Source of the DNA: Myxococcota bacterium | Lineage (GTDB): Bacteria > Myxococcota > B64-G9 | Assembly (NCBI GenBank): GCA_022710975.1 | Contig: JAKLGA010000002.1 | Span: 62,001-126,000 of the forward strand | DNA length: 64,000 bases | Reading direction: 5' to 3' | In this document: positions 32,300 to 48,948 of the stretch, in pieces | How the letters are laid out: each line of letters starts with the position of its first letter | Numbering within the stretch: the first letter of the stretch is position 1 | The notes under the pieces: model-generated | Database searches by the model: none | What the model was told of the DNA's origin: nothing | Seen by the model: the letters and a program-made list of their open reading frames with translations, nothing else | Made by a program: the position numbers and the translations under genes

Positions 32300-32312
32300 G
32301 CGCGTCCTCCGC

Positions 32313-33161
32313 CTACGCCAGCCGGTCCAGCCAGCCGGTCAGATCGGCGAACACCCGGTCCTTGCCGACCTCGTTGAAGATCTCGTGGTAGTAGCCCTCG
32401 TACACCTCGAGGCGCTTGTCCTGGCTGCCGGCGCCGCCGAACAGTCGCCGGGTCGCCTCCACCAGGGCCAGGCGGTCATCCCCGGCCTGCTGCACCAGGA
32501 GCGGCAGCGCGAGCCGGCCAGCCTCCGCCAGCGTCTCGGCCTGGGCGCGGGTCACCTCGGTGAACCAGCGCGCGGTGGTGTTGTGGCTGACCAGCGGGTC
32601 GGCCGCGTAGCGCGCCACGGCGGCCTGATCGTGGCTCACCCAGGACGGGTCCAGCCCGCTGGGCATGGAGAAGGACGGCCACACCCTGGACATCACCCGC
32701 CCCGCCATGGCCTTGACCGCCGGGATCTGCATGGCCAGGTCCATGAACGGCGAGGACAGCGCCAGCGCGCGCAGCCCCTCGGGGTGCAGCTCGGCGTAGC
32801 GGGCCGCGATCAGCCCGCCCTGGCTGTGGCCGAGCAGCACCGGCTTGCCCTCGAAGCCCGCGCGCCGCGCCTCCCCCAGGAAGGCATCCAGGTCGCCCAG
32901 GTACTCCTCGAAGGCCTCGATGTGGGCGCGCTTGCCGCCGCTCTGTCCGTGCCCGCGGTAGTCCACCGCGGCCACCGACCAGCCCGCCTCGTTCAGCCGC
33001 GCGGCCACGTGATCGTAGCGGCCGCAGTGCTCCGCGTAGCCGTGCAGCAGGGCCACCAGGCCACGGGGCTCGGGCACGCTCCAGCTCCGGAAGAAGAGGC
33101 GCAGGCCGTCCTCCGCATGGAAGAAGTGCTCCTTGTGCTCGGCGCCGCCCTTCGCATCCAT
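32313..33161 (-). CDS. Alpha/beta hydrolase, monoacylglycerol-lipase-like
   Basis: A 282-residue cytoplasmic hydrolase (serine aminopeptidase S33 / lysophospholipase family). The oxyanion segment HGYAEH (40-45), DYRGHGQS (67-74), the nucleophile elbow GHSQGG with Ser113, a late aspartate (GDDRL) and the catalytic His in YYHEIFNE are all visible; HEIFNE near the end is characteristic of the monoglyceride-lipase group. It would release fatty acid from mono- or lysoglycerolipids. It precedes pssA by 13 bases, so a phospholipid-turnover pair is likely. It has its own promoter-like site at 33196-33224. Confidence 0.92.
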   Translation of the reverse strand: MDAKGGAEHKEHFFHAEDGLRLFFRSWSVPEPRGLVALLHGYAEHCGRYDHVAARLNEAGWSVAAVDYRGHGQSGGKRAHIEAFEEYLGDLDAFLGEARRAGFEGKPVLLGHSQGGLIAARYAELHPEGLRALALSSPFMDLAMQIPAVKAMAGRVMSRVWPSFSMPSGLDPSWVSHDQAAVARYAADPLVSHNTTARWFTEVTRAQAETLAEAGRLALPLLVQQAGDDRLALVEATRRLFGGAGSQDKRLEVYEGYYHEIFNEVGKDRVFADLTGWLDRLA

Positions 33162-33195: not shown

Positions 33196-33224
33196 ATCAT
33201 GCCACGCACCCCGGGCAGGGTCAA
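33196..33224 (-). promoter_or_regulatory. Putative promoter of the hydrolase-pssA unit
   Basis: TTGACC (33224-33219) and CATGAT (33201-33196) with a 17-base spacer on the minus strand, beginning inside the last codons of the upstream gene. Confidence 0.55.
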
Positions 33225-33964
33225 TTCGTCCGCGCAGGCGGCGGGAAGAGCCAGGCGCGCAGCGGTCGCCCGGCCAGCTCCCGCCCAAGCCAGTCTGGCC
33301 CGACCAACCCGGGCAGCCCGCGCACCAGCCGCTCGAGTCCGACCTGGCTCGAGAGCCGCTCGACACAAGCCAGGGCGGCCCGGTAGTCCTCGGCCCGCGC
33401 CTGGCGCCCCGCCTCGTCCGGCGCGTCCGGCGCGCCCAGCCTCTGCTCCAGGGCCAGCAGGGCGTCCTCGCCGGCCGGGAGCGCCGCGGCCGGGGCCGGC
33501 GCGCCCGGGAGGTGCTGGGCCAGCCCCTCCTCCAGCCAGCGCGGCAGGCCGGGCCCCGCCAGGCGTCTGAGCACCAGGTGGCAGAGCTCGTGCGCCAGGA
33601 CCTGCCCGAGGTCCTCCACCCGGGCCAGCCCGCGGCCCGGCTGGGTGATGATCTCGTCCGCGTGCACGGCCGCGGCGATGTAGGCCGCCCGCCCGGTGCG
33701 CGCCCGGAACTCCTGCATGTCCCGGGCCACCCAGGCCCGCACCCGGACGCGCGGCAGCACGCCGGGCAGGCGCGCCTCCAGCGCCTCGCGGGCGCGGCAC
33801 AGGTGCGCGGCCACCCCCTCCCCCGCGGCCAGCTCGGACGGATCCGCGATCCGCACCAGCACCCCCGCGCAGCCCTCGACCTCCACCGGCGGCGCGGGGG
33901 GCGCCGCCTGGCCGGCCCCGGCGGAGCACACCAGGCAGAGCGCCAGCGCGCGCAGCCCCCTCAC
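33221..33964 (-). CDS. Exported gluzincin metalloprotease (peptidase MA-like)
   Basis: A 247-residue product whose GTG overlaps the SpoIID stop (GTGA, 33961-33964). A signal peptide (about 1-20) precedes a zinc-protease domain with HELCH at 125-129 and the third-ligand glutamate in PRWLEEGLAQ (about E146), the spacing and WLxEGLA pattern of the MA-like gluzincins. It would act in the periplasm on an unknown protein substrate. It is the last gene of the nine-gene alpha-2-macroglobulin/cell-wall operon, which makes it interesting as either a partner or a regulated protease. Confidence 0.88.
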   Translation of the reverse strand: MRGLRALALCLVCSAGAGQAAPPAPPVEVEGCAGVLVRIADPSELAAGEGVAAHLCRAREALEARLPGVLPRVRVRAWVARDMQEFRARTGRAAYIAAAVHADEIITQPGRGLARVEDLGQVLAHELCHLVLRRLAGPGLPRWLEEGLAQHLPGAPAPAAALPAGEDALLALEQRLGAPDAPDEAGRQARAEDYRAALACVERLSSQVGLERLVRGLPGLVGPDWLGRELAGRPLRAWLFPPPARTN

Positions 33965-35184
33965 GGCAGCCTCCCGAGGCGCAACCCGGGGAAGTAGCGC
34001 TGCAGGATGGCCCGGTGATCGGCCCCGGCACGCGCCATGCCCAGCGCCCCGTGCTGGCACAGCCCCACCCCGTGCCCCAGCCCCAGGCCGCGGAACTCCA
34101 CGCTCCCACCGCGCTCGCTCGCGCTCCAGCGCCCGGACTTGAACGCGCTCCAGCCGTAGCGCCTGCCCATGAGCAGCCGGAACTCGTCCCCCGTCAGCTC
34201 CCAGCGCCCCTGGGCCTCCACCACGACCCGGCGCACCCAGCCGCCCTGCCCCGGCTCGACCGCGCTCAGGCTGCACTCCCCCGGCCCGAGCGCCGGGTGC
34301 AGCCCGCGCAGGTGGGCGCACAGCTCGGACCGCGGCACCCGGAGCCGCCACGGGCCGTGGGGCGAGGCCCGGCAGTCCGGCCGCTCGGCGGGTCCGTCCG
34401 GCACCCCGCCCAGCCAGGGCCGTTCGGAGCGCGAGCCCCACACCTCGCCGGCCCGGGCCGTGTGCCCGCCGCAGGTCGAGAAGTAGGCCACCTCGGCCGG
34501 CCGCTCGCCGTCGAGCAGCACCAGCCCCGCCACCGCCCCGAGCGCCTCCCGCGCCTCGGGCGTGCAGGCGCCCTCGCCCGGGTAGACCTGGCAGTGGGTC
34601 AGATCGCAGAAGTCGGCGCCCTCGGCCCGGTGCATCCGCTCCCGGGTGAGCGTGTAGGTGCGCACCGCGATGGCCTGCGCGCGCAGGGCCTCGGCGCCGC
34701 CGGGGGCCGGGCCCAGCTCCTGGCAGGCCACGGCCGCCACGTAGCGCTCGAGGGGCACCTCGGCCACGACCTGGCACAGCCCCGCGCGCGCGCGCACCCG
34801 CAGCGCGCCGGGGTAGCGCCGGCTGGAGAAGCCGCGCCCGCCCACCTGGACGCCGTCCGTGCCGGCGGCGGGGCGGACGAGCAGCTCCGCGCCCTGGCGG
34901 CTGAGGCCCCGGGCGACGAGCGCGAGCGGCCCCGACCCGTCGCAGCGCACCCGCAGCGGCCCGGAGGTCAGCGCCTCCGCGCGGCCGTCGCCGGCGCCCA
35001 GCTCGAGCTGCAGGCGGGCTCCGCCCACCCCGGCCAGCCGGAGCTCGCGCGGCCGGTGCCGGGAGAGCACGTCCACCTGGACCGTGGCGGCCGGGCTCAC
35101 GGCGGGCTCGCCCGCCCGGACCGCGCCGGTACCGCCCGGCCACCCCAGGCCCCATAGCCCGAGGCCGAGCAGGAGTCCCCTCAT
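33961..35184 (-). CDS. SpoIID/LytB-type lytic transglycosylase
   Basis: A 407-residue exported enzyme starting at ATG overlapping the PBP stop (ATGA, 35181-35184). A signal peptide spans about 1-24. The SpoIID domain shows VPLERYVAAVACQELG (143-158, with a candidate catalytic glutamate E156), ALRAQAIAVRTYTL, the FSTCGGHT box (235-242) and near the C-terminus GHGVGLCQHGALGMA. In spore formers SpoIID cleaves glycan strands denuded of stem peptides; in non-sporulating bacteria homologues remodel septal or polar wall. No sporulation genes are nearby. It is coupled to a transpeptidase upstream and a metalloprotease downstream. Confidence 0.93.
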   Translation of the reverse strand: MRGLLLGLGLWGLGWPGGTGAVRAGEPAVSPAATVQVDVLSRHRPRELRLAGVGGARLQLELGAGDGRAEALTSGPLRVRCDGSGPLALVARGLSRQGAELLVRPAAGTDGVQVGGRGFSSRRYPGALRVRARAGLCQVVAEVPLERYVAAVACQELGPAPGGAEALRAQAIAVRTYTLTRERMHRAEGADFCDLTHCQVYPGEGACTPEAREALGAVAGLVLLDGERPAEVAYFSTCGGHTARAGEVWGSRSERPWLGGVPDGPAERPDCRASPHGPWRLRVPRSELCAHLRGLHPALGPGECSLSAVEPGQGGWVRRVVVEAQGRWELTGDEFRLLMGRRYGWSAFKSGRWSASERGGSVEFRGLGLGHGVGLCQHGALGMARAGADHRAILQRYFPGLRLGRLP

Positions 35185-36209
35185 GGCGCACCGCCCCCGC
35201 AGGCCGCGCGCGCCTGCTCCACCCGCTCCACCACCCGCCCGGCCAGGCCCGCGGCCTCGTCCGCGCCCTGGCCCTCGTGGACGAAGACGACCAGCGCGAA
35301 GGCCGGCCGGTGGGCAGGCCAGAAGCCCACGTACCAGGCGTGGGTGCGCCAGGACACGCTCTGCCAGGCGGTGGTGCCGGTCTTGCCCGCCAGCCCCAGC
35401 CGGCCCAGGCGGGCCCGGCTGCCGGTGCCGAAGGCCGAGGCTTCCTCCATGGCGCCGCGCAGGAAGCGCAGGGCCTCCGGCGCCCCCAGCACCCCGCGGG
35501 GCGGGAGCGAGGCGCCGCCAGCCGGCACCGCCAGGCGCGGGCTCAGCAGCAGCCCGCCGTTGCCCACCGCGCCCACCAGGCTGAGGAGCTGCAGCGGCGT
35601 CACCCGCAGCCCCTCGACCTGGCCCACGGCCAGCCGGGCGGCCGTCTCCGGGAACAGGGCCGAGGGCAGGCCGCCGGCCACCTCGCCCGGGAGATCCGAG
35701 CCGGTGGAGCGGCCCAGGCCCAGCTCGCGGGCCGCGGCCAGGATGGGCTCCCCCCCCAGCTCTTGCCCCAGCCAGGCGAAGTAGCGATTGCAGGAGAGCG
35801 CCAGGGCCTTGGACAGGCTGACCGGGCCGTGGCCCTCGGGCAACCAGCAGCGCACCCCGCCCACGTCCGGCTCGCGCTCCTTCCCCAGGCAGCGCTGGGT
35901 GCGGTGGGGATCGACCAGCCGCCCGGACAGCGCGGCGTAGGCGGTGACCAGCTTGAACACGGAGCCCGGGGAGACGGCCAGCTGGGCCAGCCAGGCGTCC
36001 TGCTGGTGCCAGACCAGGCGCCCCCTGGACAGGTCCATGACCGCGAAGGCCGCCCGCTGCCCGGCCGGCACCAGGTCGGCCTGGGGCTCACCCAGGCGGA
36101 GGGCGAGGCAGTCCAGGTCGTCCGGGCCAGCCGCCGCCGGCCACGCCGCCAGCGCGGCCGCGCCGAACCCCAGCAGGAGGACCACGCGAGCCCGGGTCCG
36201 CGCCCGCAT
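35181..36209 (-). CDS. Minimal penicillin-binding transpeptidase
   Basis: A 342-residue protein with an N-terminal signal or anchor (about 8-27) and only the transpeptidase domain. The three active-site motifs are intact: SVFK with nucleophile Ser83 and Lys86, SCN at 139-141, and KTGT at 276-279, followed by AWYVGFWP. The family includes class B PBPs and class D beta-lactamase relatives; absence of the usual PBP2/FtsI dimerisation domain makes it a compact D,D-transpeptidase or carboxypeptidase, or a sensor. It begins three bases after the Ser/Thr kinase stop and overlaps the SpoIID-like gene, so synthesis with both is expected. Confidence 0.92.
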   Translation of the reverse strand: MRARTRARVVLLLGFGAAALAAWPAAAGPDDLDCLALRLGEPQADLVPAGQRAAFAVMDLSRGRLVWHQQDAWLAQLAVSPGSVFKLVTAYAALSGRLVDPHRTQRCLGKEREPDVGGVRCWLPEGHGPVSLSKALALSCNRYFAWLGQELGGEPILAAARELGLGRSTGSDLPGEVAGGLPSALFPETAARLAVGQVEGLRVTPLQLLSLVGAVGNGGLLLSPRLAVPAGGASLPPRGVLGAPEALRFLRGAMEEASAFGTGSRARLGRLGLAGKTGTTAWQSVSWRTHAWYVGFWPAHRPAFALVVFVHEGQGADEAAGLAGRVVERVEQARAACGGGAP

Positions 36210-36212
36210 GGC

Positions 36213-37721
36213 TCAGCGCCCTCCCCGCTTGCCGGTCGTCCGCTTCTTGGCCGGCTGCTTGCGCGGGGGCCTGGGCCAGGTCACCTCCAGCACCAGCGGC
36301 TCGCCCGGGGCCACCTGGCGCTCGAAGGTGCGCGCTTGCTTGCGCCCGACCCGCCGGAGCTCGATGCGGTGGGGACCCGGCGGCACCGGACGGGCGACGA
36401 TGGGCGCGGCCCCGAGCGGGACCCCGTCCAGCCACACCTCGGCCGGCCGGCTGGAGCTGACGCTGAGCAGCCCGTCCGCCGGCGGCCAGAGCAGCAGGAC
36501 CGCCAGCGCGGCCGCGGCGAGCAGGCCCGCGGCCAGCCCGAGCCCGAGCCACAGCCGCCAGCCGCGCCAGCGCCAGGCGCGGGCAGGCGCGGGCACCTTG
36601 GCCAGGGTCACGGCCTGGGTCTGGGCCTGGAGCAGCGCGCGCGCCTCCTCCGGCACCGGCAGGCGGGGCACGGACACCGGCTCCACCAGCCCAAGCAGCT
36701 CGTCCAGGTGGATCTCCTGGGTGGCGTCGGTCGCCCCCTCGTCGCCGGCCAGCGCCAGCTTCTCGGTCTTCGCCTCCTCGAGGTTGGCGCAGGCCGGCGT
36801 CAGCCCGCAGGCCACCCGCGCGCCCAGCACCTGGGGCGGGAGCTGGGTGCCCCGGCGGGGCTTGAGCGTGAAGAAGCGCTGCAGGGCCTGGGCCATCTCC
36901 GCGCCGGTCTGGTAGCGCTTCTCCGGGCGCTTGGCCAGCGCCTTCAGCGCCACGCTGTCCATAGGCCGGGTCGCCTCCCGCACCAGGGAGCTCGGCGGGG
37001 CGGGCTCCTCCCGCAGGACGCGCGCCCAGATCTCCTTGGCATTGACGCCCTGGAACGGGCTGCGGCCGGTCAGCAACTCGTACAGCACCACCCCCAGCGA
37101 GAACAGGTCGGCCCGGCCGTCGAACGGCAGCCCCTGCACGTACTCCGGGGCCATGTACTCGTACTTGCCCTTGAGCAGGCCCGGCCGGGTGAAGGAGGCG
37201 TACTGCATGGCGCGCGCGATGCCGAAGTCGGTGATCTTCACCCGGCCCTGGCGGTCCACCAGCACGTTACCCGGGGTGATGTCGCGGTGCACCACCGGAC
37301 CCCGATCGCTGCGGCCGCCGCCCTGGTGGGCGTAGTCGAGCCCCAGGGCCACCTGGTGGACCACGTAGCCGATCTCGGGCAGGGTGAGCGCGAGCTGGCC
37401 CGGGGGCGAGGCCGCCACCAGGCTCTCCAGGTCGAGCCCTTCCAGGTACTCCATGACGATGTAGTAGCTCGAGCCGATGTTCACCAGGTCGTGGACGCGC
37501 ACGATGTTGGGGTGCTGCATGCCCGAGGCGATGCGCGCCTCGTTGACGAACATGCCCACGAACTCGCGGTCGGCCGCCAGCTTGGGGAACAGGCGCTTCA
37601 CGGCCACCAGCCGGGGCGGGCCGTCCGGGGGGCGGTCCTCGGCCTTGAACACCTCGGCCATGCCGCCCTTGCCGACCCGCTCCAGGAGCCGGTAGCGGCC
37701 GATCTGCCTGTCCTCGCCCAT
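36213..37721 (-). CDS. Membrane Ser/Thr protein kinase with PEGA domain
   Basis: A 502-residue Hanks-type kinase. Kinase domain about 8-285: glycine loop GKGGMAEVF, ATP lysine K42 in VAVK, catalytic HRDITPGN with D147, DFG at 165-167, and APE at 191-193. A disordered linker rich in Gln and Thr (about 290-385) leads to one membrane helix (about 389-412) and an extracytoplasmic PEGA domain (about 417-482, SSRPAEVWLDGVPLG), then a basic tail. HRDITPGN and the PEGA domain are typical of Myxococcota kinases. It lies between the Nif3-like gene (10-base gap) and the PBP gene (3-base gap), suggesting it senses or controls the envelope functions of this operon. Confidence 0.95.
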   Translation of the reverse strand: MGEDRQIGRYRLLERVGKGGMAEVFKAEDRPPDGPPRLVAVKRLFPKLAADREFVGMFVNEARIASGMQHPNIVRVHDLVNIGSSYYIVMEYLEGLDLESLVAASPPGQLALTLPEIGYVVHQVALGLDYAHQGGGRSDRGPVVHRDITPGNVLVDRQGRVKITDFGIARAMQYASFTRPGLLKGKYEYMAPEYVQGLPFDGRADLFSLGVVLYELLTGRSPFQGVNAKEIWARVLREEPAPPSSLVREATRPMDSVALKALAKRPEKRYQTGAEMAQALQRFFTLKPRRGTQLPPQVLGARVACGLTPACANLEEAKTEKLALAGDEGATDATQEIHLDELLGLVEPVSVPRLPVPEEARALLQAQTQAVTLAKVPAPARAWRWRGWRLWLGLGLAAGLLAAAALAVLLLWPPADGLLSVSSSRPAEVWLDGVPLGAAPIVARPVPPGPHRIELRRVGRKQARTFERQVAPGEPLVLEVTWPRPPRKQPAKKRTTGKRGGR

Positions 37722-37731
37722 GTCTTCCGCT

Positions 37732-38499
37732 TCACACCGGGTTCGGCACGTCCAGGTGGACGACCTCCAGCCCGAAGCGAGCCCCGAGCCGGTCGCCCAG
37801 GGCGCGCACCCCGAGCTTCTCCGAGTTGTAGTGTCCGAGCGCGATCACCCCCAGCCCGAGCTCGCGGGCCGCGGCCACGCCGGGCTCCGCCAGGCTGCCG
37901 GTCAGGTAGGCGTCGCAGCCGGCCTGGCGGGCCTGGAGCAGGAGGGCCGGATCCCCCGCCCCGCCCGAGACCACCCCCACCCGGCGCACCTGGGCCGGGC
38001 CGGCCTCCACCAGCACGGGCTGGGCCGCGAGCGGCCGGGCCAGCCGGCTGGCCAGCTCGCCGAGCGCCAGGGGCTCGCGCAGGCGCCCCAGGCAGCCCAG
38101 GTGCTGGCCCTGGTGCGCGCCGAAGGCGAAATCGAGCTCCTCGAGCCCGGCCAGGCGGGCCAGGCAGGCGTTGTTGCCCACCTCGGGGTGGGCGTCCAGC
38201 GGAAGGTGGTAGGCGAGCAGGTTGATCTCCCGCTCGAGCAGCGCCCGCAGGCGCGGCGCCATCAGGGCGTCCACCACCCGCGGGTCGCGGTCCCAGAACA
38301 GCCCGTGGTGGAGCAGGATCAGCTGCGCGCCGCGCGCGGCCGCCTCGCGGAAGAGCATCAGCGAGGGCGAGGCGCCGGTGGCCAGGCAGCCCACCTCGGG
38401 CTGGCCGTGCACCTGCAGCCCGTTGGGGGTGTGATCGGCGAACAGCCCCGGGGACAGCAGGTCGTCGCAGAAGGACACGATCTCGTCGCGCGAGGCCAT
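37732..38499 (-). CDS. Nif3/DUF34-family dinuclear metal protein
   Basis: A 255-residue Nif3-like protein. Metal ligands are recognisable: HH at 64-65 in ILLHHGLFWD, an aspartate in YHLPLDAHP, and the C-terminal GHYNSEKLG with the conserved His and Glu. Homologues such as YbgI form toroidal hexamers with two metals per subunit and have been linked to GTP cyclohydrolase-like activity and metal insertion, but the function is unsettled. Its ATG is two bases after the YfaP-like stop and its end is ten bases before the kinase gene, an odd cytoplasmic partner in an otherwise envelope-directed operon. Confidence 0.92.
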   Translation of the reverse strand: MASRDEIVSFCDDLLSPGLFADHTPNGLQVHGQPEVGCLATGASPSLMLFREAAARGAQLILLHHGLFWDRDPRVVDALMAPRLRALLEREINLLAYHLPLDAHPEVGNNACLARLAGLEELDFAFGAHQGQHLGCLGRLREPLALGELASRLARPLAAQPVLVEAGPAQVRRVGVVSGGAGDPALLLQARQAGCDAYLTGSLAEPGVAAARELGLGVIALGHYNSEKLGVRALGDRLGARFGLEVVHLDVPNPV

Positions 38500-38501
38500 G
38501 C

Positions 38502-39227
38502 TCAGGTGCCCCCGGCGGCGGCCTGCGACTCCTCCTCGGGCGCCTCGAGGGTGAACAGCCCCACCTCCTCCTTGTCGCCGGTCTTGGTGAGGATCTTCTG
38601 GAAGGCCACCCGCTTCTCGCGCTCGGTGCCCTCGTACATGACCACCTGGACCTTGAGCGCCGTCTGCGGGTGATCGTTGCTGGAGTAGTACTTCACCTCG
38701 ACCTTGTACTCGCCGCTTTTCGCGTTGGCGAGGGTGAACACCTCGGGCCCGAACCCGTCCGTGTCGTCCACGTCGAGCTTGCCGCCGAGCTGGGTGTCGC
38801 GGTGGCCGTAGAAGCACTCCTCGCCGGCGGGATCGGTCACGTGCAGATCGACGTCGGTGCCGTCCGTGTCCCACATCAGCACCACCTGCAGGTCCACGGG
38901 TGGCACGTCGGAGACGAAGTGGATGGCGTCCCGGCCCTCGCCGAGCGCGTTCCTGGCCACCACCTCGATGGAGTTGGCCCCGGCCGAGACCACCAGGGTG
39001 GCCTGGAAGCGGCCGCCGCGCACGTCGATCCAGCGCTCGAAGCCGTTGACCACCATGACGGCGCGGGCGAGCTCCGCGTCGTCCACGCTGCCCTTCAGCT
39101 CCACGATGCGGGTGGTGGACCAGCCGCTCGTGGGAGCCTCGATGTCCACCTTGGGCGGGCCCTTGGGCGCCGCCAGGGCGGCGGCGGAGGCCAGGCACGC
39201 GAGCGCAGCCAGCCAGGTGAGGCGCAT
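38502..39227 (-). CDS. YfaP-like exported protein (DUF2135)
   Basis: A 241-residue product. The signal peptide is about 1-20 (ending LAA). An Ig-like N-terminal domain (about 27-108) is followed by the DUF2135 domain (about 112-185): LQVVLMWDTDGTDVDLHVTDPAGEECFYG, LGGKLDVDDTDGFGPEVF and SGEYKVEVKYY. In Escherichia coli and Pseudomonas aeruginosa, DUF2135 proteins are encoded in the same cluster as the YfaS/MagD alpha-2-macroglobulin, which matches this position 15 bases after the alpha-2-macroglobulin gene. It likely binds the macroglobulin or its prey in the periplasm. Confidence 0.9.
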   Translation of the reverse strand: MRLTWLAALACLASAAALAAPKGPPKVDIEAPTSGWSTTRIVELKGSVDDAELARAVMVVNGFERWIDVRGGRFQATLVVSAGANSIEVVARNALGEGRDAIHFVSDVPPVDLQVVLMWDTDGTDVDLHVTDPAGEECFYGHRDTQLGGKLDVDDTDGFGPEVFTLANAKSGEYKVEVKYYSSNDHPQTALKVQVVMYEGTEREKRVAFQKILTKTGDKEEVGLFTLEAPEEESQAAAGGT

Positions 39228-39242
39228 GTTCTCCTCCTCCCC

Positions 39243-42200
39243 TCAATCCGCCACGCGCAGCTCGTCGCCGGCCGAGTTGCCGGCGTAGCGCGGGTCGTAC
39301 ATGGGCAGCACGCGCGCGGGCAGCACCTTGTACTGGCCCGGCTGCGTGGCCCGCGCCAGGTAGGCCAGCCGGCGCTCGCCCCGGCCGAGCTCGCGCACGA
39401 AGAAGGCCACGCGGTCGTCGCGGAACTCTCGGTGCAGGCCGCGCTGGCGGAGCTCCACGCCCGGCAGCTCGTAGCCCTGGTCCTGCTCCAGCGGCACCAC
39501 GCCGGCGGCCAGGGGATCCTCGACCAGGACGTAGTCCACGTCCTCGCCGGCGCGCACGGTGAGCAACACCAGCAGCTCCTCGCCGGGCTTGACCGGCCGA
39601 TCGAGCGGCCGGGTGACGAACTTCCAGGTGTCCCCCTCCAGGCGTTTCTCCAGCCGCAGGAGCTGGCGCTCCACGCGCAGCCGCTCGCCCCGGGCCGGGA
39701 TGTCCGCCTGCCGCCCGAAGAAGCGCACCGAGGCGGTGTAGAACACGCTGCCCTTGCCCTGGCGCTCGAGCTCGAACAGGTTCGCGCCCGCCCTGGCCGG
39801 AGCCGCGAACAGCTCCAGGCTGGGCTTCAGCAGCTCGGCCTGGCCGAGGGCCCGCTGGCCAGCCGGGGCGGCGTTCAGCTTGCCCGTCACCTGGGCCTCC
39901 ACCAGGGCCCCGCCGGACTTCTTGAGGTAGTCCACCAGGGCGAAGACCGCCATGGCCGTGTCGCGCGTGGACTGCCAGTGGCCCTCCTCGCGCGCGGCCA
40001 TCAGCCAGCGCACCGCCTCGGGGATGCGCGCCGAGCCGGGCTTGCCCAGGACCAGCGCCCGCAGCACGGCCGCGGTGGACTCGACCGGATCGCGCTCCCA
40101 GCCCGGTCCGTCCTCCCGGCCCCAGGGGGCGTCGCCCGGGTCGGTGGCCACCGCCAGCTCGAGCTGGGCGGTCAGCCGCTCGGCCGGCTCGCGCTGGCCC
40201 AGCTCGTGCAGCGCGAGCGCCAGCAGCGCGCGGCCGTAGTCGGACAGCTCCCCGGGGCTGGCCACCAGCTTCTCCAGCATCGACTCGAACTTCACGCCCG
40301 CCAGCGCCAGGCTGTAGAGCAGGTAGCTGCGCCCGGTGGGGCTGAGGCTGGAGTCGCGCACCAGGGCCTGCAGGCGGTTGGAGCCCCGGGCCAGCAGGTC
40401 CTCGTCCAGGGGCCAGCCGAGCTTCTTGGCCAGCGCCAGCCCGTGCACCACGTAGGCCGTCATCATGGGGTCGGTGCTGTCGCCCTCCCACCAGCCCCAG
40501 CCGCCGTCCGCGTGCTGCAGGGCCTTGAGCCTCGCCAGCCCGGCGTGGATGTACTCCGGCAGCTTGGCCTGGAGCGCCGGATTGGGGAGCTTCAGCTCGT
40601 CCAGCGCCTTGGCCACCACCAGATCGGGCAGGAAGCGGCTCATGGTCTGCTCGGTGCAGCCGTAGGGGTAGCCGGCCAGGTAGTCGAGCGCGGACAGCAG
40701 CGCCGGCGCCAGGCCGGAGGACAGGCTGACCTCGGCCCGCACGCTGCCCTCGGCCACCGCCGCGGGCACCTCGAGCTCCAGGCGGGCCGTCGGCCGCTCG
40801 TCGTCCAGCACGCCGCCGGACACCAGCACCTGCTCCAGCCCGTAGCGCAGGATCGGGAGGGTGCGCTGCACGCCGTCCTCGGCGCCGTCGCCGCCGTCGG
40901 CCGCCGCGCGCAGCACGACCTCGCCGGGCGCGGTCGCGCTGGCCTGCCAGGTGGCCAGCGCCAGCCCGCCCGGGGCCACCTTGAGGGCGGCCGGCTGGCC
41001 CTCCAGCGTCAGGCCCGGGGCGCCGCTCTCGAGCCGCACCTGGAAGGTGCGCTCGGCCTCGGTGTAGTTCTGCACCAGCACCCCCAGCCGGGAGCGATCC
41101 CCCTCGACCAGGAAGGCCGGCGCCACGAGCTGGACCACCACCGGCTTGCTGACCCGCACCTCGCCGGTCCCCTCGCCCACCCGGGTGTCGCCGGTCACCA
41201 CGCGCGCCGTGGCGCGCCAGGTGGTCAGGTTGTCCGGGGCCACGGCCGACAGCCGGGCCACGCCCTGGGCGTCGGTGAGCAGGGCCGGCTCCCAGGCCAG
41301 GGTGTCCTTGAAGTCCTTGCGCACCTGGGCGCTGGCCAGCTCCTTGAACGAGCCGGGCACCACCGGGGCCCGCAGGTGCAGGGCGGCCATGCGATCCTTG
41401 CGGTCCACCCCGTAGCCGTAGAAGCGGAAGTCGAGCGAGCAGCTCGCCCGCACGTCGTCGCGCTTGCGGTGGTAGAAGAAGCGCTCGATGGGGATGGCGA
41501 ACTCGGGGCTGATGCCGTAGACGGCCTCGTCCACGACCCCCAGGGCCACCTCGGCCCGGGGGACCGGCTGTCCATCGCTGTCCCGCACCTCCACCAGGAA
41601 GCTCACCTGCTCGCCTGGCCGGACCGGGCTCTTCTCGGCCCGCACGGCCACCTGCAGCAGCTTCTCCCGGGGCGGCACCACCACGTCCAGGCGCTGCTCC
41701 AGCAGGTTGCGCTCGAAGACGGTGGCGGCCCGCACGAAGAAGTTCGGGGACTGCGCCTCGGCGATGGGCACCTCCAGGACCGCCGCGTTGCCGCGGGCCC
41801 GCAGCACCTCGTGGCGGTAGAGCCTGCCGCCCTCCACGGTCACCAGCAGGTGCGACTCCGCGTGCGGGCTGAGCACCAGGAAGCGGGCCTTGTCACCCAC
41901 CCGGTAGGTCCGCCGGTCGGCCAGGATCTCCAGCCCGGACGGCTCGGCCGGCACGTCGGCGCCGTCGGAGGTCACGTACAGCGTGGCCCGCCCCACGACC
42001 GGCTGGCCGCCCGCGTCCTTGGCGCTGCCGCTCACCTGGTAGGCGCCACCCCGTTCGGCCGGGAAGGACACCCAGGCCTCGCCCTTGGGGCCGGTCGCCA
42101 CCCGCTGCCGGTGGACCTCGGCCTCCTCCACCTGGCCGCCCGCGCCCGCGCGGCGGGCGGTGACCACGACCTCCACCTCCGCGGGGACCGGCGCCCGGGC

Positions 42201-43841
42201 GAAGTCCGTGGTGCGCACCCTCACCCGGGCCTGGCCGCCCGGGGAGGCCAGCAGCACCTCCGGCTCGAGCACCAGGCGGAACTCCGCCTTGGTGACGCGC
42301 AGCGAGGCCCGGCCGGTGATGGTGTTCTCGGCCGCGTCGACGACCACCGCCTCGATCCCGTAGGTCCAGTCCAGGCTGTCGGGCTTGGTCTCGAAGGAGA
42401 AGGCGTGCTTGCCCTGCTCGTCCAGCCGGCCCTCGCCCTCGAAGATGGTCTCGCGCAGCGAGCTGCGCACCTCGGACTCCGAGTAGTACCAGGCGTACTC
42501 CGCGTCCACCCACCAGGGCACGTAGAAGCGGGTGCGGTAGGCCGACACCTTCACCTTGGCCCCCGGCAGCGGCGGGCCGAAGAAGTAGTTGGCGTTCACC
42601 TCGGCCTGCACCCTGGCGCCGCTCGGGTAGGCCTTCTTGTCGGTCCGGACGCCCACCTTGAACTCGGGCTTGCGGTAGGCCTTGACCTTGAACTCGCCCG
42701 CGTACTCCTGCGACCCCAGCGCGGCCACGAGGCGGTAGGTCCCCACGCTGGCGCTCTCGGGCAGGCGGAAGGCGCCGTGGAAGCTGCCGCGCTCGGAGAC
42801 CGTGGCCTGCCCCTCGAACACCGCCTGCCCGTTCGGATCGCGCACCGTGAGCTTGGCCTGCTCGCCGGCCCCGTCCACCTGGTAGCGCTCGTCGCGCCAG
42901 GCCCGCACCACGCCCTTCCACTGCACCTCGTGGCCCGGGCGGTAGACCGGGCGCTCGCTGGTCAGGTAGACCTTGCGCTCCATCAAGTTGGCCGGGTGGT
43001 AGCTCGGATCGAGGAGCGCGAAGTCCTCCCCCCGCCGGGCGAATACGACCGTCTCGCGCAGCAGCGGGACGTCCTTCTCCCACACACCCTGCGCGTCGGT
43101 GGTGCCCTTGGCGATCTCCTGGCCGCCGCTCCACAGGCTCACCTCGGCCTCGGGCACGGGCGTGCCCAGATCCGGGTCGGCGGCGAACACCAGGAAACGA
43201 TCCTGGCTCTGGCGGGTGAGCAGCAGCATCCGGGAGAGCACCACCACGGTGTAGCCCACCTCGGTGCCGTTCACCGCCTCGACCAGGTACACGCCCGGGC
43301 GGCGCACGCCCAGCGGGATCTTCGGGTAGACCCACTCGCCCCCGCCGGGCAGCTGCTCCTGCCACAGGTCCACGACCTCCAGCCCCTTGAGCAGGCCCAG
43401 CGAGGTGCGCCGCTCGGGCGCCGCCTCGGCCCGCTGCTGGAGTCCGTCCACCTGCTCGCCGTAGGCGCGCCGGCCGGACACACGGGCGGCCTTGCTCAGG
43501 CTGCCCTTGCCGGTGTCCCACAGCCGCCTGGAGAGCTGGTGCCAGGCCTCGGCGGCCACCTCCAGGCTGTGCGCGCGGGCGGGCCCTTGCTCGGTCTCCA
43601 CCCGGTGGAGGTCTGGCTGGGCGCGGAAGAAGGCCGCGGGATCGGGCACCCGGTACAGGCGGAAGTCGAGCTCGCTCAGGTCGTGCGCCTCGAGCTGGAC
43701 GTAGACCTCCGCCTCGCCCGGGCTGAACACCCGGTCGGTGGACAGGTAGAAGCGGGGCTGCTCGGCCCGGGCCGGAGCGGCCCCCAGGGCGAGCAGGCCG
43801 AGCGCCAGAAGGACGCGTGGGGCGATGCCAGGCAAGCTCAT
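39243..43841 (-). CDS. Alpha-2-macroglobulin with intact thioester (YfaS/MagD-type)
   Basis: A 1532-residue exported protein; ATG follows AAGGAGG. A cleavable signal peptide (about 1-26, ending ARAE) lacks a lipobox, so it is soluble in the periplasm. A row of MG domains covers about 30-1020. The thioester motif is GCTEQ with Cys1062, at the start of an all-helical TED domain (about 1050-1330); MG and receptor-like domains finish the chain. Such proteins trap proteases by cleavage of a bait region followed by covalent attachment through the thioester. The P. aeruginosa MagD homologue is described as lacking this motif, so an intact CTEQ here implies covalent trapping. It overlaps the DUF1175 gene (ATGA, 43838-43841). 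Confidence 0.96.
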   Translation of the reverse strand: MSLPGIAPRVLLALGLLALGAAPARAEQPRFYLSTDRVFSPGEAEVYVQLEAHDLSELDFRLYRVPDPAAFFRAQPDLHRVETEQGPARAHSLEVAAEAWHQLSRRLWDTGKGSLSKAARVSGRRAYGEQVDGLQQRAEAAPERRTSLGLLKGLEVVDLWQEQLPGGGEWVYPKIPLGVRRPGVYLVEAVNGTEVGYTVVVLSRMLLLTRQSQDRFLVFAADPDLGTPVPEAEVSLWSGGQEIAKGTTDAQGVWEKDVPLLRETVVFARRGEDFALLDPSYHPANLMERKVYLTSERPVYRPGHEVQWKGVVRAWRDERYQVDGAGEQAKLTVRDPNGQAVFEGQATVSERGSFHGAFRLPESASVGTYRLVAALGSQEYAGEFKVKAYRKPEFKVGVRTDKKAYPSGARVQAEVNANYFFGPPLPGAKVKVSAYRTRFYVPWWVDAEYAWYYSESEVRSSLRETIFEGEGRLDEQGKHAFSFETKPDSLDWTYGIEAVVVDAAENTITGRASLRVTKAEFRLVLEPEVLLASPGGQARVRVRTTDFARAPVPAEVEVVVTARRAGAGGQVEEAEVHRQRVATGPKGEAWVSFPAERGGAYQVSGSAKDAGGQPVVGRATLYVTSDGADVPAEPSGLEILADRRTYRVGDKARFLVLSPHAESHLLVTVEGGRLYRHEVLRARGNAAVLEVPIAEAQSPNFFVRAATVFERNLLEQRLDVVVPPREKLLQVAVRAEKSPVRPGEQVSFLVEVRDSDGQPVPRAEVALGVVDEAVYGISPEFAIPIERFFYHRKRDDVRASCSLDFRFYGYGVDRKDRMAALHLRAPVVPGSFKELASAQVRKDFKDTLAWEPALLTDAQGVARLSAVAPDNLTTWRATARVVTGDTRVGEGTGEVRVSKPVVVQLVAPAFLVEGDRSRLGVLVQNYTEAERTFQVRLESGAPGLTLEGQPAALKVAPGGLALATWQASATAPGEVVLRAAADGGDGAEDGVQRTLPILRYGLEQVLVSGGVLDDERPTARLELEVPAAVAEGSVRAEVSLSSGLAPALLSALDYLAGYPYGCTEQTMSRFLPDLVVAKALDELKLPNPALQAKLPEYIHAGLARLKALQHADGGWGWWEGDSTDPMMTAYVVHGLALAKKLGWPLDEDLLARGSNRLQALVRDSSLSPTGRSYLLYSLALAGVKFESMLEKLVASPGELSDYGRALLALALHELGQREPAERLTAQLELAVATDPGDAPWGREDGPGWERDPVESTAAVLRALVLGKPGSARIPEAVRWLMAAREEGHWQSTRDTAMAVFALVDYLKKSGGALVEAQVTGKLNAAPAGQRALGQAELLKPSLELFAAPARAGANLFELERQGKGSVFYTASVRFFGRQADIPARGERLRVERQLLRLEKRLEGDTWKFVTRPLDRPVKPGEELLVLLTVRAGEDVDYVLVEDPLAAGVVPLEQDQGYELPGVELRQRGLHREFRDDRVAFFVRELGRGERRLAYLARATQPGQYKVLPARVLPMYDPRYAGNSAGDELRVAD

Positions 43842-44920
43842 GGACGACCTCCTTCGAGGATCTTCCAGCGGTAGAAGCCCAGGAAACGCGGGTTGGACGG
43901 GGACGGGTGCCAGCGATCGTCGGCGTGCCCGTCCAGGTCCTGGAGACGGACCAGGCGAACCTCGCCCGGGCCGGAGGCGTCCGGGCCGGTGTGGTAGACC
44001 ACCCGGCGCTGGCGCCCGAGCGCGGGCGGATCGAGCAGGATCATGGAGTGCATCGGGGCGGTGTGGTGCTCGGGGTCGCGGAAGAAGAGCAGGTCCCCGG
44101 CCAGCGCCCGGGCGGCGTCGGCGCCCAGGGGCACGCAGTTCTGCTCCCACAGCAGCGTGGCCGAGGCCGTCGGGCCGAAGTCCGCGGCCGCGCCGGGCTC
44201 CTGCCGGTAGGGCCCGGGCTGGACGCGGAACAACCGCTCCCCGAGCAGGGGGATCTCGGGGTAGCGGAAAGCGCGCGGGTCGGCCGGCCCGGGCGTGTGC
44301 AGGTAGGGCACCCGCGACCGCCAGCCGTCGTCGTGGGCGCGCAGCGCCTCCTTGTAGGCGAACCGCAGCAGCCCGGCGCAGTCCCGGTGCACCGGCTCCC
44401 AGCGCGGGTCCGGCGCGTAGAACTGGGCCTCGGCGATGGTGGTGAACCAGGCGCGGAAGGCGCGGCGGTCGCCCTCGTCGCGGAGCTCGGCCGCGTCCGG
44501 GAAGCCGTCCTGGTCGGCGTCCACCTGCGGCGGGGCCAGCACCAGGCTGAAGCGCTCGCGCCCCAGGCCCGTGTCCAGCTCGACCACGGCCGCCCCGGCC
44601 TGGCCGGCGGGCCGCAGGCCGAGCTCCAGGGAGGCCGGCCCCTGGGTGCGGCTGCCCTCGCCCACCAGCCGCACCCGTCCGGCGCCCTCCACCACGCGCG
44701 CCTGGACGTCGAAGGGCCAGAAGGGCACGGCCGCGCCGTAGACGTTGTCGAGCCTCCAGACCAGCCGGGCGCTGCGGCCCGGATCGGCCGGCAGGCTGCC
44801 GGGCGTCAGGCTGGCGACCCGGGAGACGGGCACCAGCACGCTGGCCGCGAACAGCAGCACCAGGCCGCCCAGGGCGGCCAGGCCGACGCGCAGGTCGGAG
44901 GGTGCCCGCGCGGGCCTCAC
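43838..44920 (-). CDS. DUF1175 / YfaT-like membrane-anchored protein
   Basis: A 360-residue protein starting at GTG that overlaps the upstream stop (GTGA). One N-terminal membrane helix (about 12-30) is followed by a beta-sandwich (about 45-130) and the DUF1175 domain (about 140-355), recognisable by AQFYAPDPRWEPVHRDCAGLLRFAYKEAL with a conserved Asp-Cys, then GDLLFFRDPEHHTAPMHSMI. The Cys near HRDC and the His near PMHS are arranged like an NlpC/P60-type pair, so peptidoglycan or amide hydrolysis is possible. DUF1175 proteins accompany YfaS-type macroglobulins; this one is longer than the enteric form because of the N-terminal domain. Confidence 0.88.
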   Translation of the reverse strand: MRPARAPSDLRVGLAALGGLVLLFAASVLVPVSRVASLTPGSLPADPGRSARLVWRLDNVYGAAVPFWPFDVQARVVEGAGRVRLVGEGSRTQGPASLELGLRPAGQAGAAVVELDTGLGRERFSLVLAPPQVDADQDGFPDAAELRDEGDRRAFRAWFTTIAEAQFYAPDPRWEPVHRDCAGLLRFAYKEALRAHDDGWRSRVPYLHTPGPADPRAFRYPEIPLLGERLFRVQPGPYRQEPGAAADFGPTASATLLWEQNCVPLGADAARALAGDLLFFRDPEHHTAPMHSMILLDPPALGRQRRVVYHTGPDASGPGEVRLVRLQDLDGHADDRWHPSPSNPRFLGFYRWKILEGGRP

Positions 44921-46569
44921 AGCGGCACCACGCTCCCCTGGATGGCCGGCGGGCGGGCCCACAGCGCGCCGCCCAGCTTGCCGAGCTGGCCCAAGCCCTC
45001 GAGGAAAGGCTTCAGGGTGTCGTCCACGTCGTTGGCATCGAACCGCTCGCCCAGGGCCACCCCGGCCCGCAGGAGCGCCAGGGCGTCCTGGCACAGGCCG
45101 GCCGCGTCCAGGTAACCCAGCCCGAAGGCCGGCGCGCCCCCTCCGGCCAGCAGATCCTTCAGCCCGGGCACGTCCCTCAGGGCCGGCGCCTGGCCGGCGG
45201 CCGTGCCCATGACCTTGCGCACCGCGTCCGCGGTCGTGCCGCAAACCAGCCATCCGTCCAGGACCGCGCAGGCCGGGCTCCAGGGCTCCTCGGCGCCCCG
45301 GGCCAGCCACAGCCGCTTGCCCCCGGGCGCCCCGGCCTCCTCCTGCTGGGGCTGCCCGAAGGCACCCGCCAGGGCCGCGGCGGCGAACTCGCCGGCCGCC
45401 CGGGGATCGGTGGTGGGGACGAGCAGCGCGGCGTGCAGGCGGGGCCCCCCCGGGCCGCCCTCCAGGCCGGTGAGCACCAGCACTCCCTCGCTGCCAAGCG
45501 ACTCGGGCGCGGCGGGCAGCGCCGGCCGCTTGTCCTCGCCCTCACCCTCGTCCTCGGGAGCGGACTCGGCCAGGGCGGCCCACAGCCCGGCCGTGTTCAC
45601 CTGCGCCCGGCCGAGCACCAGCCGGCTCTCCAGGGGCAGGAGGCCGGCCGAGGCCGGCAGCAGCTCCGGGGACAGCGGCGCGCCGCCCTCCGCGAGCGGC
45701 GCCCGGAACTCGAGCCGGGGAGACGGCTCCGCCCGCCAGCCCAGGGCCACGGCCGGGAGCGGCAGGGCGAGCGCCCACAGCCCGCCCAGCCCCTCGGGCC
45801 CGAGCAGCACCAGCAGGTCGGGATCGGCCGCGGCCTGGAGCAGGCCGCCCAGGGCCTCGTCCTTGGCCAGGCCGGCCTTGGCGTCCGGCTTGCCCGCAGC
45901 CCGCGCCAGGGCCTCCACCAGCATGTCCTGGTCGTTGGAGACCAGCAGCAGGTTGGAGAACAGGTGGTAGTGCATGGCCTGGTCCGGGCCGAGGTCCACC
46001 GAGCGCACCGCGAACCCACCGACCTCGGCGGTCTGGACCAGCTCCCCCGGGCGGGCCTGGGCGAAGGCCTCCACCAGCCGCTCCAGGGACTGCACCTTGA
46101 GATCGACCGCCTTGACCGCCAGGAACGAGGCCTTCTCGCCGTCCCAGCGCATGGCCAACCCGACCGGGCCCACCAGCAGCTCGCCCAGGCTCGGCTGCTG
46201 CAGCGGGACGGGCGAGGCGGCCGCCACCCGGTGCCGCAGGGTGGAGAGCTGGCGCAGCGGACCGGACAGGCTGAGATCGACCCACACCGGCGAGGCGCGC
46301 AGCGCCTGCCACCACGCACGGCCCTCCAGCCAGGCCAGGACCTTCTCCGGTCGATCGGACAGCACGGCCGCCTGGGCGTCCGCGGGCAGCAGCCCGGCCA
46401 CCTGCACCAGCGCGGCGCTGGGGAGCTTGCCCACGGTGGACTCGAAGTCCCGGGCCCCGGGGGTCGGCCCGCTGCCGGAGCCCTCCTCGCCGCACTTGCA
46501 GGCGGCCAGGGCCAGCAGGCAGAGCAAGGTGCACAGACCGCAAACCAGGCCGGTCCTTCGTCGAAGCAT
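44917..46569 (-). CDS. Lipoprotein in the YfaA/DUF2138 position of the macroglobulin cluster
   Basis: A 550-residue product; ATG 46569 follows GGAGG by six bases and gives a clean lipoprotein signal (LLALAAC, Cys26). The mature part has repeated alpha/beta units with FLAVKAVDLK, LLLVSNDQDMLVEAL and RLVLGRAQVN, resembling DUF2138/DUF3352-type proteins, and its length and place match YfaA of the enteric yfa cluster. The assignment to DUF2138 rests on synteny plus general pattern and needs a profile search. It is the first gene of the nine-gene operon; a TTGACG-N17-TACGCT promoter-like site lies at 46598-46626. Confidence 0.83.
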   Translation of the reverse strand: MLRRRTGLVCGLCTLLCLLALAACKCGEEGSGSGPTPGARDFESTVGKLPSAALVQVAGLLPADAQAAVLSDRPEKVLAWLEGRAWWQALRASPVWVDLSLSGPLRQLSTLRHRVAAASPVPLQQPSLGELLVGPVGLAMRWDGEKASFLAVKAVDLKVQSLERLVEAFAQARPGELVQTAEVGGFAVRSVDLGPDQAMHYHLFSNLLLVSNDQDMLVEALARAAGKPDAKAGLAKDEALGGLLQAAADPDLLVLLGPEGLGGLWALALPLPAVALGWRAEPSPRLEFRAPLAEGGAPLSPELLPASAGLLPLESRLVLGRAQVNTAGLWAALAESAPEDEGEGEDKRPALPAAPESLGSEGVLVLTGLEGGPGGPRLHAALLVPTTDPRAAGEFAAAALAGAFGQPQQEEAGAPGGKRLWLARGAEEPWSPACAVLDGWLVCGTTADAVRKVMGTAAGQAPALRDVPGLKDLLAGGGAPAFGLGYLDAAGLCQDALALLRAGVALGERFDANDVDDTLKPFLEGLGQLGKLGGALWARPPAIQGSVVPL

Positions 46570-46597
46570 GGTCGCCTCCGTGGCAGGATGGCCCGGG

Positions 46598-46626
46598 AGC
46601 GTACCAGCGCCTCCGGCGATCGTCAA
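46598..46626 (-). promoter_or_regulatory. Putative promoter of the alpha-2-macroglobulin/cell-wall operon
   Basis: TTGACG (46626-46621) and TACGCT (46603-46598) on the minus strand, 17 bases apart, 28 bases upstream of the first ATG. Confidence 0.55.
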
Positions 46627-47160: not shown

Positions 47161-47204
47161 GCTCTCCTCCTGCCGCCGCGTCCGGATGGCCGCGAGGCCC
47201 GAGA

Positions 47205-47233
47205 CGAGTACCGCACCAGGCGCGGAGGGTCAA
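47205..47233 (-). promoter_or_regulatory. Putative promoter of the GNAT gene
   Basis: TTGACC (47233-47228) and TACTCG (47210-47205) with a 17-base spacer on the minus strand; the -10 box is poor. Confidence 0.4.
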
Positions 47234-47306
47234 GATCGCGCATGCGCGTTTCGAGGCTGCTGTGGCTGCGTCCCGCGGTTTCTTTGCCCCAGCCCGAACT
47301 TCCCTA

Positions 47307-47336
47307 TTGACAACCGATGGTTAATCTGGTTAACAA
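47307..47336 (+). promoter_or_regulatory. Putative promoter of kamA with GGTTAA direct repeats
   Basis: TTGACA (47307-47312, perfect) followed after 18 bases by TAACAA (47331-47336). Two GGTTAA words at 47319 and 47328, spaced nine bases, lie in the spacer and overlap the -10 box. Confidence 0.5.
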
Positions 47337-47494
47337 ACGTCCCCAACAAGGCACCTACCTCGTTTTGGGTGCCGCGCTCACGCTGGATCTCGAAGCGTTT
47401 GATACAAGTGGGTGGATCGGCAGCTCCTGGCTGGTGCGGCGCGTCAGCCGCCTGGGGGTTCGACCACCACCCTGTTGGAGGCCGCGTTAGGAAC

Positions 47495-48916
47495 ATGGAG
47501 ACGATCGTCGAAGAAGAGAGTTCTTCCCAGCCTCCAGGTAGTAAGCGCAACTCCCTGGAGAAAAACCTGCCTGCGCCCGCTCGCAGCGACCGGCGAGCCG
47601 TCCGTAGAAACGCCAGCCAGGAGAAAGGTGCCTCCTCCGCGAGGGGAAAGGCGCTGGAGCAGCCGCGGCGGTCCGCGCGTCCGGTGACGCCGTCGAACTT
47701 CCCGCAGTTGTTCCTGTTCCCGCACCTGCGCGGCCAGCCTCGCCGGAACACCGCGCCGTCGGAGTTCCAGGCGAAGCACTTCCCCGGCTCGACCGTGGAG
47801 GATTGGGCCGACTGGCACTGGCAGCTCAAGAACCGGCTGCGGACGGTGTCCGATCTGGAGCGCATCGTCCAGCTCTCGGCCCCCGAGCGCGAGGCGCTCT
47901 CCCGCCGGCGAGGCCACCTGCCGGCGTCCATCACGCCGTACTACGCCAGCCTGATGGACCCGAAGGACGCGGGCCAGGCCATCCGCCGGGCGGTGATCCC
48001 GGTGACGGCCGAGTTCGTCCGCACCAAGGGCGAGGAGGACGATCCGCTGGGCGAGGATCACACCAGCCCGGTTCCGGGCCTGGTGCACCGGTACCCTGAC
48101 CGGGTCCTGTTCCTCACCACGGACCACTGCTCGGTCAACTGCCGGTACTGCACCCGCTCGCGGGTGATCGACCACGGCGAGATGGCCCCCGACCCCAAGC
48201 GCTGGGACCGGGCCATCGAGTACATCGAGCGGACCCCGACCGTGCGCGACGTGCTGCTCTCGGGCGGCGATCCGCTCACCCTGCCGGACGAGCGGCTGGA
48301 CTACCTGCTCGGCCGGCTGCGGCGGATCCGCCACGTCGAGGTGCTGCGCATCGGCACCAAGTCGCCGGCGGTGCTGCCCCAGCGCGTCACCCCGCAGCTC
48401 ACGCGGATGCTCAGACGCTACCACCCGCTGTGGATGAGCCTGCACTTCATGCACCCGGCCGAGCTCACCCCCGAGGTGCAGCAGGCCTGCGGCCGCCTGG
48501 CGGACGCGGGCATCCCGCTGGGCAGCCAGACGGTGCTGCTCAAGGGCATCAACGACTCGGTCGAGGTGATGAAGAAGCTCGTGCAGGGGCTGCTGCGTTG
48601 CCGCGTGCGGCCGTACTACCTGTACCAGTGCGACCCGATCACCGGCTCGGAGCGTTTCCGCACCAACGTGGAGAAGGGCCTGGAGATCATCCAGGGCCTG
48701 CGCGGGTTCACCTCGGGCTACGCGGTGCCGCACTTCGTGGTGGACGCCCCGGCCGGCGGCGGCAAGATCGCGCTGCTGCCCGACGCGGTGCTCGGCCGTG
48801 ACGGTCGGGATCTGGTGCTGCGCAACTACGAGGGCCGGCTGTTCCGCTACCCGGAGCCCGCCGAGGAGAGCCCCTCGACCACCTGGCCGCTCATCCCCCA
48901 ACCCACCTGTAGCTGA
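47495..48916 (+). CDS. kamA: KamA-family radical SAM aminomutase, lysine-2,3-aminomutase-like
   Basis: A 473-residue protein. The radical SAM cluster motif is C212-SVN-C216-RY-C219; the PLP lysine is K424 in APAGGGK. D380 (QCDPITG) and D417 (VVDAP) are 37 residues apart and D417 is seven before the PLP lysine, exactly the spacing of D293, D330 and K337 that bind lysine in Clostridium lysine 2,3-aminomutase; glutamate aminomutases replace these aspartates with Lys and Asn. A conversion of L-lysine to beta-lysine is therefore likely. The first 85 or so residues are a basic low-complexity extension absent from typical members, so a downstream start is possible. It lies 32 bases before two coupled ATP-grasp ligases. 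Confidence 0.93.
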   Translation: METIVEEESSSQPPGSKRNSLEKNLPAPARSDRRAVRRNASQEKGASSARGKALEQPRRSARPVTPSNFPQLFLFPHLRGQPRRNTAPSEFQAKHFPGSTVEDWADWHWQLKNRLRTVSDLERIVQLSAPEREALSRRRGHLPASITPYYASLMDPKDAGQAIRRAVIPVTAEFVRTKGEEDDPLGEDHTSPVPGLVHRYPDRVLFLTTDHCSVNCRYCTRSRVIDHGEMAPDPKRWDRAIEYIERTPTVRDVLLSGGDPLTLPDERLDYLLGRLRRIRHVEVLRIGTKSPAVLPQRVTPQLTRMLRRYHPLWMSLHFMHPAELTPEVQQACGRLADAGIPLGSQTVLLKGINDSVEVMKKLVQGLLRCRVRPYYLYQCDPITGSERFRTNVEKGLEIIQGLRGFTSGYAVPHFVVDAPAGGGKIALLPDAVLGRDGRDLVLRNYEGRLFRYPEPAEESPSTTWPLIPQPTCS

Positions 48917-48948
48917 GCCAGGCGCGGGTGGTCTGCGCGAGGCACGCC

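Follow-up and report, generated by a model that had tools for sequence, protein, structure and literature searches.

Described bacterial alpha-2-macroglobulins (A2Ms) follow a rule in which the thioester accompanies pbpC, while clusters carrying DUF1175 go without it. In the Type I arrangement, exemplified by yfhM-pbpC of Escherichia coli, a thioester A2M adjoins a penicillin-binding protein (PBP), and the idea of a trap joined to wall repair is already published for this pair (PMC5764988, PMC7554673). The Type II A2M of Pseudomonas aeruginosa, MagD, is encoded in magABCDEF and lacks the CxEQ thioester motif; it traps a bait-cleaving protease in vitro and binds MagA, MagB and MagF (PMC5764988). 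The mag system is a periplasmic complex with an inner-membrane anchor that traps proteases and protects from wall-targeting type VI secretion system (T6SS) effectors (PMC5764988, PMC12663445). The mechanism by which MagD protects against peptidoglycan-targeting T6SS effectors is unknown (PMC12663445), and MagC, a DUF1175 protein, is cited in PMC10318531 as binding peptidoglycan. Enteric bacteria possess a related operon, yfaA-yfaT-yfaS-yfaQ-yfaP, of which YfaQ was reported independently, with no link to A2Ms, as a transpeptidase-like and SpoIID-like protein with a wall-mutant-like deletion phenotype (PMC12282094). Here, we describe a nine-gene operon that breaks the rule, in a 64,000-nucleotide stretch (the window) of a Myxococcota bacterium (GCA_022710975.1, contig JAKLGA010000002.1, positions 62,001 to 126,000). 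It unites, in a single transcriptional direction, a predicted protease-trapping protein resembling one of animal immunity with three enzymes predicted to cut or stitch the cell wall.

A thioester A2M in a yfa/mag-like operon

A first-pass annotation of the window had proposed nine minus-strand open reading frames (ORFs) separated by -4, -4, 15, 2, 10, 3, -4 and -4 bases; all nine are present at those places, and the gaps are exact. The genes are listed in the order of transcription, the right-hand coordinate of each being its best start.

44917..46569, minus strand: lipoprotein of 550 aa, start ATG, lipobox LAAC-K
43838..44920, minus strand: DUF1175/MagC-like protein with N-terminal membrane anchor, start GTG (PF06672, E 1e-62; MagC structure 7bk8, E 1e-22)
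39243..43841, minus strand: A2M of 1532 aa with Sec signal peptide, no lipobox, thioester C1062-TEQ (GYPYGCTEQTMSRF)
38502..39227, minus strand: DUF2135/YfaP homolog, predicted exported (hhalign to E. coli YfaP, probability 99.8)
37732..38499, minus strand: Nif3/DUF34 protein, cytosolic
36213..37721, minus strand: Ser/Thr protein kinase (STPK) with VAVK, HRD and DFG motifs, a transmembrane helix near residue 395 and a sub-threshold PEGA domain
35181..36209, minus strand: minimal penicillin-binding DD-transpeptidase of 342 aa (S83VFK, S139CN, K276TG), predicted exported, no glycosyltransferase domain
33961..35184, minus strand: SpoIID/LytB-type peptidoglycan enzyme (TIGR02669, 146 bits against a cut-off of 83), catalytic Glu in CQEL near residue 156
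33221..33964, minus strand: gluzincin metallopeptidase (H125ELCH...E146), predicted exported, start GTG

A signal peptide, lipobox or N-terminal membrane anchor is predicted on seven of the nine products, the prediction being weakest for SpoIID; predicted export is absent in Nif3, and the kinase possesses one internal membrane helix. The seven predicted exported products, namely the lipoprotein, DUF1175, A2M, DUF2135, PBP, SpoIID and gluzincin proteins, are one conserved module. The family labels assigned at first pass hold for every gene from DUF1175 to the gluzincin, with the PEGA domain scoring just below cut-off, and fail for the lipoprotein, which had been called DUF2138-like. We rejected a DUF2138 identity for this protein: it matches no Pfam or NCBIfam family, its hhalign score against E. 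coli YfaA (E 0.04) is not meaningful, and its AlphaFold model (mean predicted local distance difference test score, pLDDT, 72) finds no fold match in the PDB. The lipoprotein gene nevertheless occupies the position of yfaA at the head of the operon, and its family is conserved in the bacterium's own family and in Archangium-type genomes.

The A2M carries the CxEQ motif and the domain order of known traps. The motif is retained in nearly all of 92 aligned A2M sequences, while the enteric YfaS proteins of E. coli and Citrobacter have GVIN at the corresponding position. Residues 760-850 of the family A2M alignment showed no hypervariable bait stretch. The genome encodes six A2Ms, the other five lying on contigs C14, C5, C3, C4 and C19. 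The DUF1175 protein retains an NlpC/P60-type Cys (DCAG, near residue 181) and His. Elsewhere in the window, a minus-strand gene (27155-29395) encodes a lipoprotein with Cys-rich repeats and HYDIN/ASH-type Ig domains, the C-terminal part of which (approximately residues 570-705) matches the YfaP/DUF2135 genes of relatives (E ~1e-8).

Among the wall enzymes, the PBP comprises a transpeptidase domain only, with the SxxK, SxN and KTG motifs in place, and the SpoIID protein is, by its sequence, a SpoIID/LytB family member with the catalytic Glu, for which peptidoglycan cleavage is predicted. In the gluzincin, H125, E126, H129 and E146 are invariant in seven sequences; its structural model (pLDDT 75) best matches LTA4H and M1 aminopeptidases in the PDB, with a probability of up to 1.00 but an E value of 0.02.

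The locus shares features with each of the described systems and differs from each. With the enteric yfa operon it has in common a cluster holding DUF1175, A2M, DUF2135, PBP-like and SpoIID domains and headed by a large N-terminally anchored protein; it differs in that YfaS lacks the thioester, YfaQ is a single fusion whose transpeptidase part has a degenerate SxN (SCG), YfaA is a DUF2138 protein with no likeness to the lipoprotein, and Nif3 and STPK genes are missing from the enteric operon. With mag it shares an A2M accompanied by a MagC-type DUF1175 protein, a comparison drawn from the literature and the MagC structure, and it departs from mag in its CxEQ. DUF1175 adjoining the A2M and DUF2135 in the operon are Type II traits, whereas a thioester-less A2M and a DUF2138 protein are absent; with its CTEQ thioester, which YfaS and MagD lack, this A2M falls outside the standard Type II. 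Type I loci share the CxEQ and an adjoining PBP, but PbpC is a bifunctional class A enzyme (PBP1C) with a glycosyltransferase domain, YfhM is named a lipoprotein in PDB entries while the A2M here has no lipobox, and DUF1175, DUF2135, SpoIID and gluzincin genes are absent from the yfhM-pbpC neighbourhood.

No DUF2300 family match occurs in the operon; the separate PBP and SpoIID genes match YfaQ, a tandem DUF2300 protein, by profile. The N-terminal part of E. coli YfaQ aligns with the minimal PBP family (E 6e-7, probability 92), the alignment including GSLWK, paired cysteines and SCGLYFA, in which SCG replaces SxN. The middle of YfaQ aligns with the SpoIID family (E 6e-9, probability 96), and YfaQ exceeds the Pfam SpoIID cut-off. 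Judged by these profile matches, the PBP and SpoIID genes probably correspond to YfaQ in unfused form. The C-terminal HEYLH...LDENYIE of YfaQ stands where Acidobacteria fuse a gluzincin to SpoIID, and this HExxH likely corresponds to the gluzincin, though the profile match is weak.

Recurrence of the module in Myxococcota and other phyla

Conservation was followed in nine genomes of the bacterium's own lineage, at the family, order and class levels, and in a set of 195 Myxococcota genomes. This A2M is present in seven of the nine family genomes, and gene order is syntenic wherever it exists, as far as contigs allow. The order lipoprotein-DUF1175-A2M-DUF2135-(Nif3)-STPK-PBP-SpoIID-gluzincin is found in genomes G003, G005 and G008, and the same order across contig breaks in G004, G001 and G006, contig ends interrupting the gluzincin gene of G004 and the A2M gene of G006. 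Archangium-type genomes carry all seven parts of the module in one uninterrupted run that lacks Nif3 and STPK, with a single ORF encoding both PBP and SpoIID. Among the 195 genomes, the A2M occurs in 12 and the PBP ortholog (E<1e-44) in 12, with an overlap of 11; the exceptions are G013, with the A2M only, and G047, with the PBP only (locus L153, 9044-9859), where neither SpoIID nor gluzincin was found within 10 kb. Neighbour analysis in relatives thus bears out the linkage of A2M and wall enzymes that had been drawn from the window alone. Relatives retaining the A2M without wall genes, which would have made the linkage accidental, are absent from the family and the Archangium-type genomes and number one in the Myxococcota (G013, locus L033).

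The wider distribution was charted in 80 loci from one collection scan, searched with profiles built from the own family. In nine Acidobacteria loci, the A2M gene (with DUF1175 in view in eight) converges with a SpoIID-gluzincin fusion and a PBP gene; besides these, in L062, the end of a gluzincin is visible at the contig edge. PBP with SpoIID lies beside the A2M in other orientations in Saganbacteria (L032) and in Obscuribacterales/Vampirovibrio (L083, L085 and L089; PBP only in L105). Deinococcota plasmids (L178, L179 and L180) possess a three-gene DUF1175-A2M-gluzincin set, the gluzincin homolog scoring E 5e-20; this third gene is annotated there as 'hypothetical protein'. The kinase and Nif3 profiles match almost nothing in the 80 loci, which serves as a built-in control. 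For the 46 loci with enough flank, DUF1175 and the wall module are associated (8/1 versus 3/34; Fisher P 5e-6, not corrected for phylogeny). This recurrence in distant bacteria, together with the domains of YfaQ, indicates that wall enzymes belong to this A2M operon type generally. The earlier suggestion that wall genes had been newly joined to an A2M in this organism is contradicted by the same loci, by the Deinococcota sets for the gluzincin alone, and by enteric YfaQ, where PBP-like and SpoIID domains reside in one protein (PMC12282094).

Function of the module and standing of the kinase

We read the operon as an exported module of seven genes, similar in type to yfa/mag, that traps attacking proteases in the envelope and mends the peptidoglycan, and within which two cytoplasm-side genes, Nif3 and STPK, are lodged in this family; we give this reading a probability of about 0.62. 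Given the separate wall enzymes in the module, the reading that asks for the fewest assumptions is an envelope system of the trap-and-mend type, and it agrees with the published finding that MagD protects against T6SS effectors aimed at peptidoglycan. For the organism of the window, we infer each functional step. The proteins would assemble at the face between inner membrane and peptidoglycan, with DUF1175 and the lipoprotein as their anchors. Once inside the envelope, a protease would cut the A2M bait, upon which the thioester would fire and hold the protease covalently. The SpoIID enzyme would clear damaged glycan and the transpeptidase re-crosslink at the same spot, while the gluzincin may process the A2M or a wall-bound protein or clean up trapped complexes, its substrate being a guess. 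Nif3 and the kinase would be co-transcribed passengers, and the enteric version, in which YfaS lacks the thioester and YfaQ the SxN, could be a degenerate descendant.

Several observations weigh against this proposal. The MagD phenotype concerns wall-cutting effectors and not proteases, and protease trapping may therefore not be the main job. Fifty of the 80 loci with a thioester A2M of the same superfamily have neither DUF1175 nor wall genes nearby, G013 has the DUF1175-A2M pair alone, G047 has the PBP without this A2M, the genome G002 has no settled place in the family tree, and the profile match between YfaQ and the gluzincin is weak (E 0.007-0.02, probability 2-6%). That A2M and wall genes stand together by accident, as G013 and the many related A2Ms without such neighbours might suggest, is nonetheless scarcely credible, and was rejected on neighbour analysis across phyla: the genes recur in several phyla in differing orientations, wall parts are fused to each other (PBP-SpoIID in Archangium, SpoIID-gluzincin in Acidobacteria), and presence and absence track across Myxococcota. 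More serious, though still doubtful, is the idea of a machine for wall morphogenesis. In it, the A2M would act as a scaffold, structural or cross-linking, that its thioester attaches to wall or protein, and the gluzincin may be a built-in opening trigger. Three wall or peptidase enzymes per A2M, conserved across phyla, would suit such a machine, as would the wide cells of E. coli yfaQ deletants, which resemble wall mutants (PMC12282094), and the protection by MagD against wall hydrolases (PMC12663445); trapping of a bait-cleaving protease by MagD in vitro (PMC5764988), and the CxEQ motif and domain order of known traps, speak instead for a trap. An elaboration of trap-and-mend, which we consider unlikely as a whole, would make A2M, DUF1175, transpeptidase, SpoIID and gluzincin an ancestral yfa/mag immune module. 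In this elaboration, the gluzincin would be a trigger that cuts the bait upon wall breach and the thioester would fix the A2M onto the intruder or wound while transpeptidase and SpoIID mend; the Type II systems of enteric bacteria and Pseudomonas would be derived from it by loss of the thioester and by fusion or loss of wall enzymes.

The kinase had been taken at first pass as part of the system, and it could be imagined as a PEGA-STPK sensor-regulator that phosphorylates operon products or turns on wall repair upon A2M cleavage. Its gene does sit within the operon, with gaps of 10 and 3 bases to the adjacent genes, it is found in every A2M-bearing family genome, and the VAVK Lys, HRD and DFG motifs of an active bacterial Ser/Thr kinase are intact. 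The distribution of the kinase makes such a role improbable: an ortholog is present in nine of nine family genomes, A2M-bearing or not, and in none of the 186 other Myxococcota, and Archangium-type genomes have the entire module with neither STPK nor Nif3. The kinase is tied instead to two genes downstream of the operon:

31556-33161, minus strand: monoacylglycerol-lipase-like hydrolase and CDP-alcohol phosphatidyltransferase, with promoter-like sites on both sides of the pair

Two genomes with no A2M, PBP or gluzincin ortholog retain the kinase gene, G007 as Nif3-STPK directly before the hydrolase and G002 as STPK-hydrolase-CDP-alcohol phosphatidyltransferase. The hydrolase and phosphatidyltransferase with STPK (and Nif3) are an older conserved family cluster. 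In a tree of RpoB, with reading frames chosen by BLAST, G007 is sister to the A2M-bearing G004 (support 97/97); the STPK tree places G007 with G004 and G001 less firmly and G002 on a long branch. G007 has thus most likely lost both flanking module halves and kept Nif3-STPK, and their joint disappearance ties the halves to each other and sets Nif3-STPK apart. Nif3 is absent beside the STPK in G005 and G002 and is probably outside the A2M module.

In the literature library searched, we found no paper treating macroglobulin, SpoIID and transpeptidase together. The locus is a meeting point for two questions: how MagD protects, raised by a 2025 screen (PMC12663445), and what YfaQ does, a protein recently linked to the wall without reference to macroglobulins (PMC12282094). 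The wall enzymes of this A2M system are separate genes, with catalytic motifs and thioester intact, and can therefore more readily be tested individually.

Operon boundaries and neighbouring genes

A promoter-like site lies at either end of the operon:

46598..46626, minus strand: weak site TTGACG-17-TACGCT, 8 of 12 consensus bases, below the promoter scan threshold
33196..33224, minus strand: site TTGACC-17-CATGAT, 9 of 12 consensus bases, with TG ahead of the second hexamer; the scan found two such sites in the region, against 0.1 expected

The site at the head of the operon, which the first-pass annotation had pointed out, is real but weak, and lies directly past the stop codon of an upstream GNAT gene; none was found at 37700 or 36200 in the scan of the operon region. 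The second site is stronger and lies directly past the ninth gene, the gluzincin, which plausibly places the end of the operon there; it is likely the start of the next unit, the hydrolase and CDP-alcohol phosphatidyltransferase pair. Divergent from the operon, on the plus strand at 47189-50918, a lysine-2,3-aminomutase-like radical SAM gene is followed by two D-Ala-D-Ala-ligase-like ATP-grasp genes.

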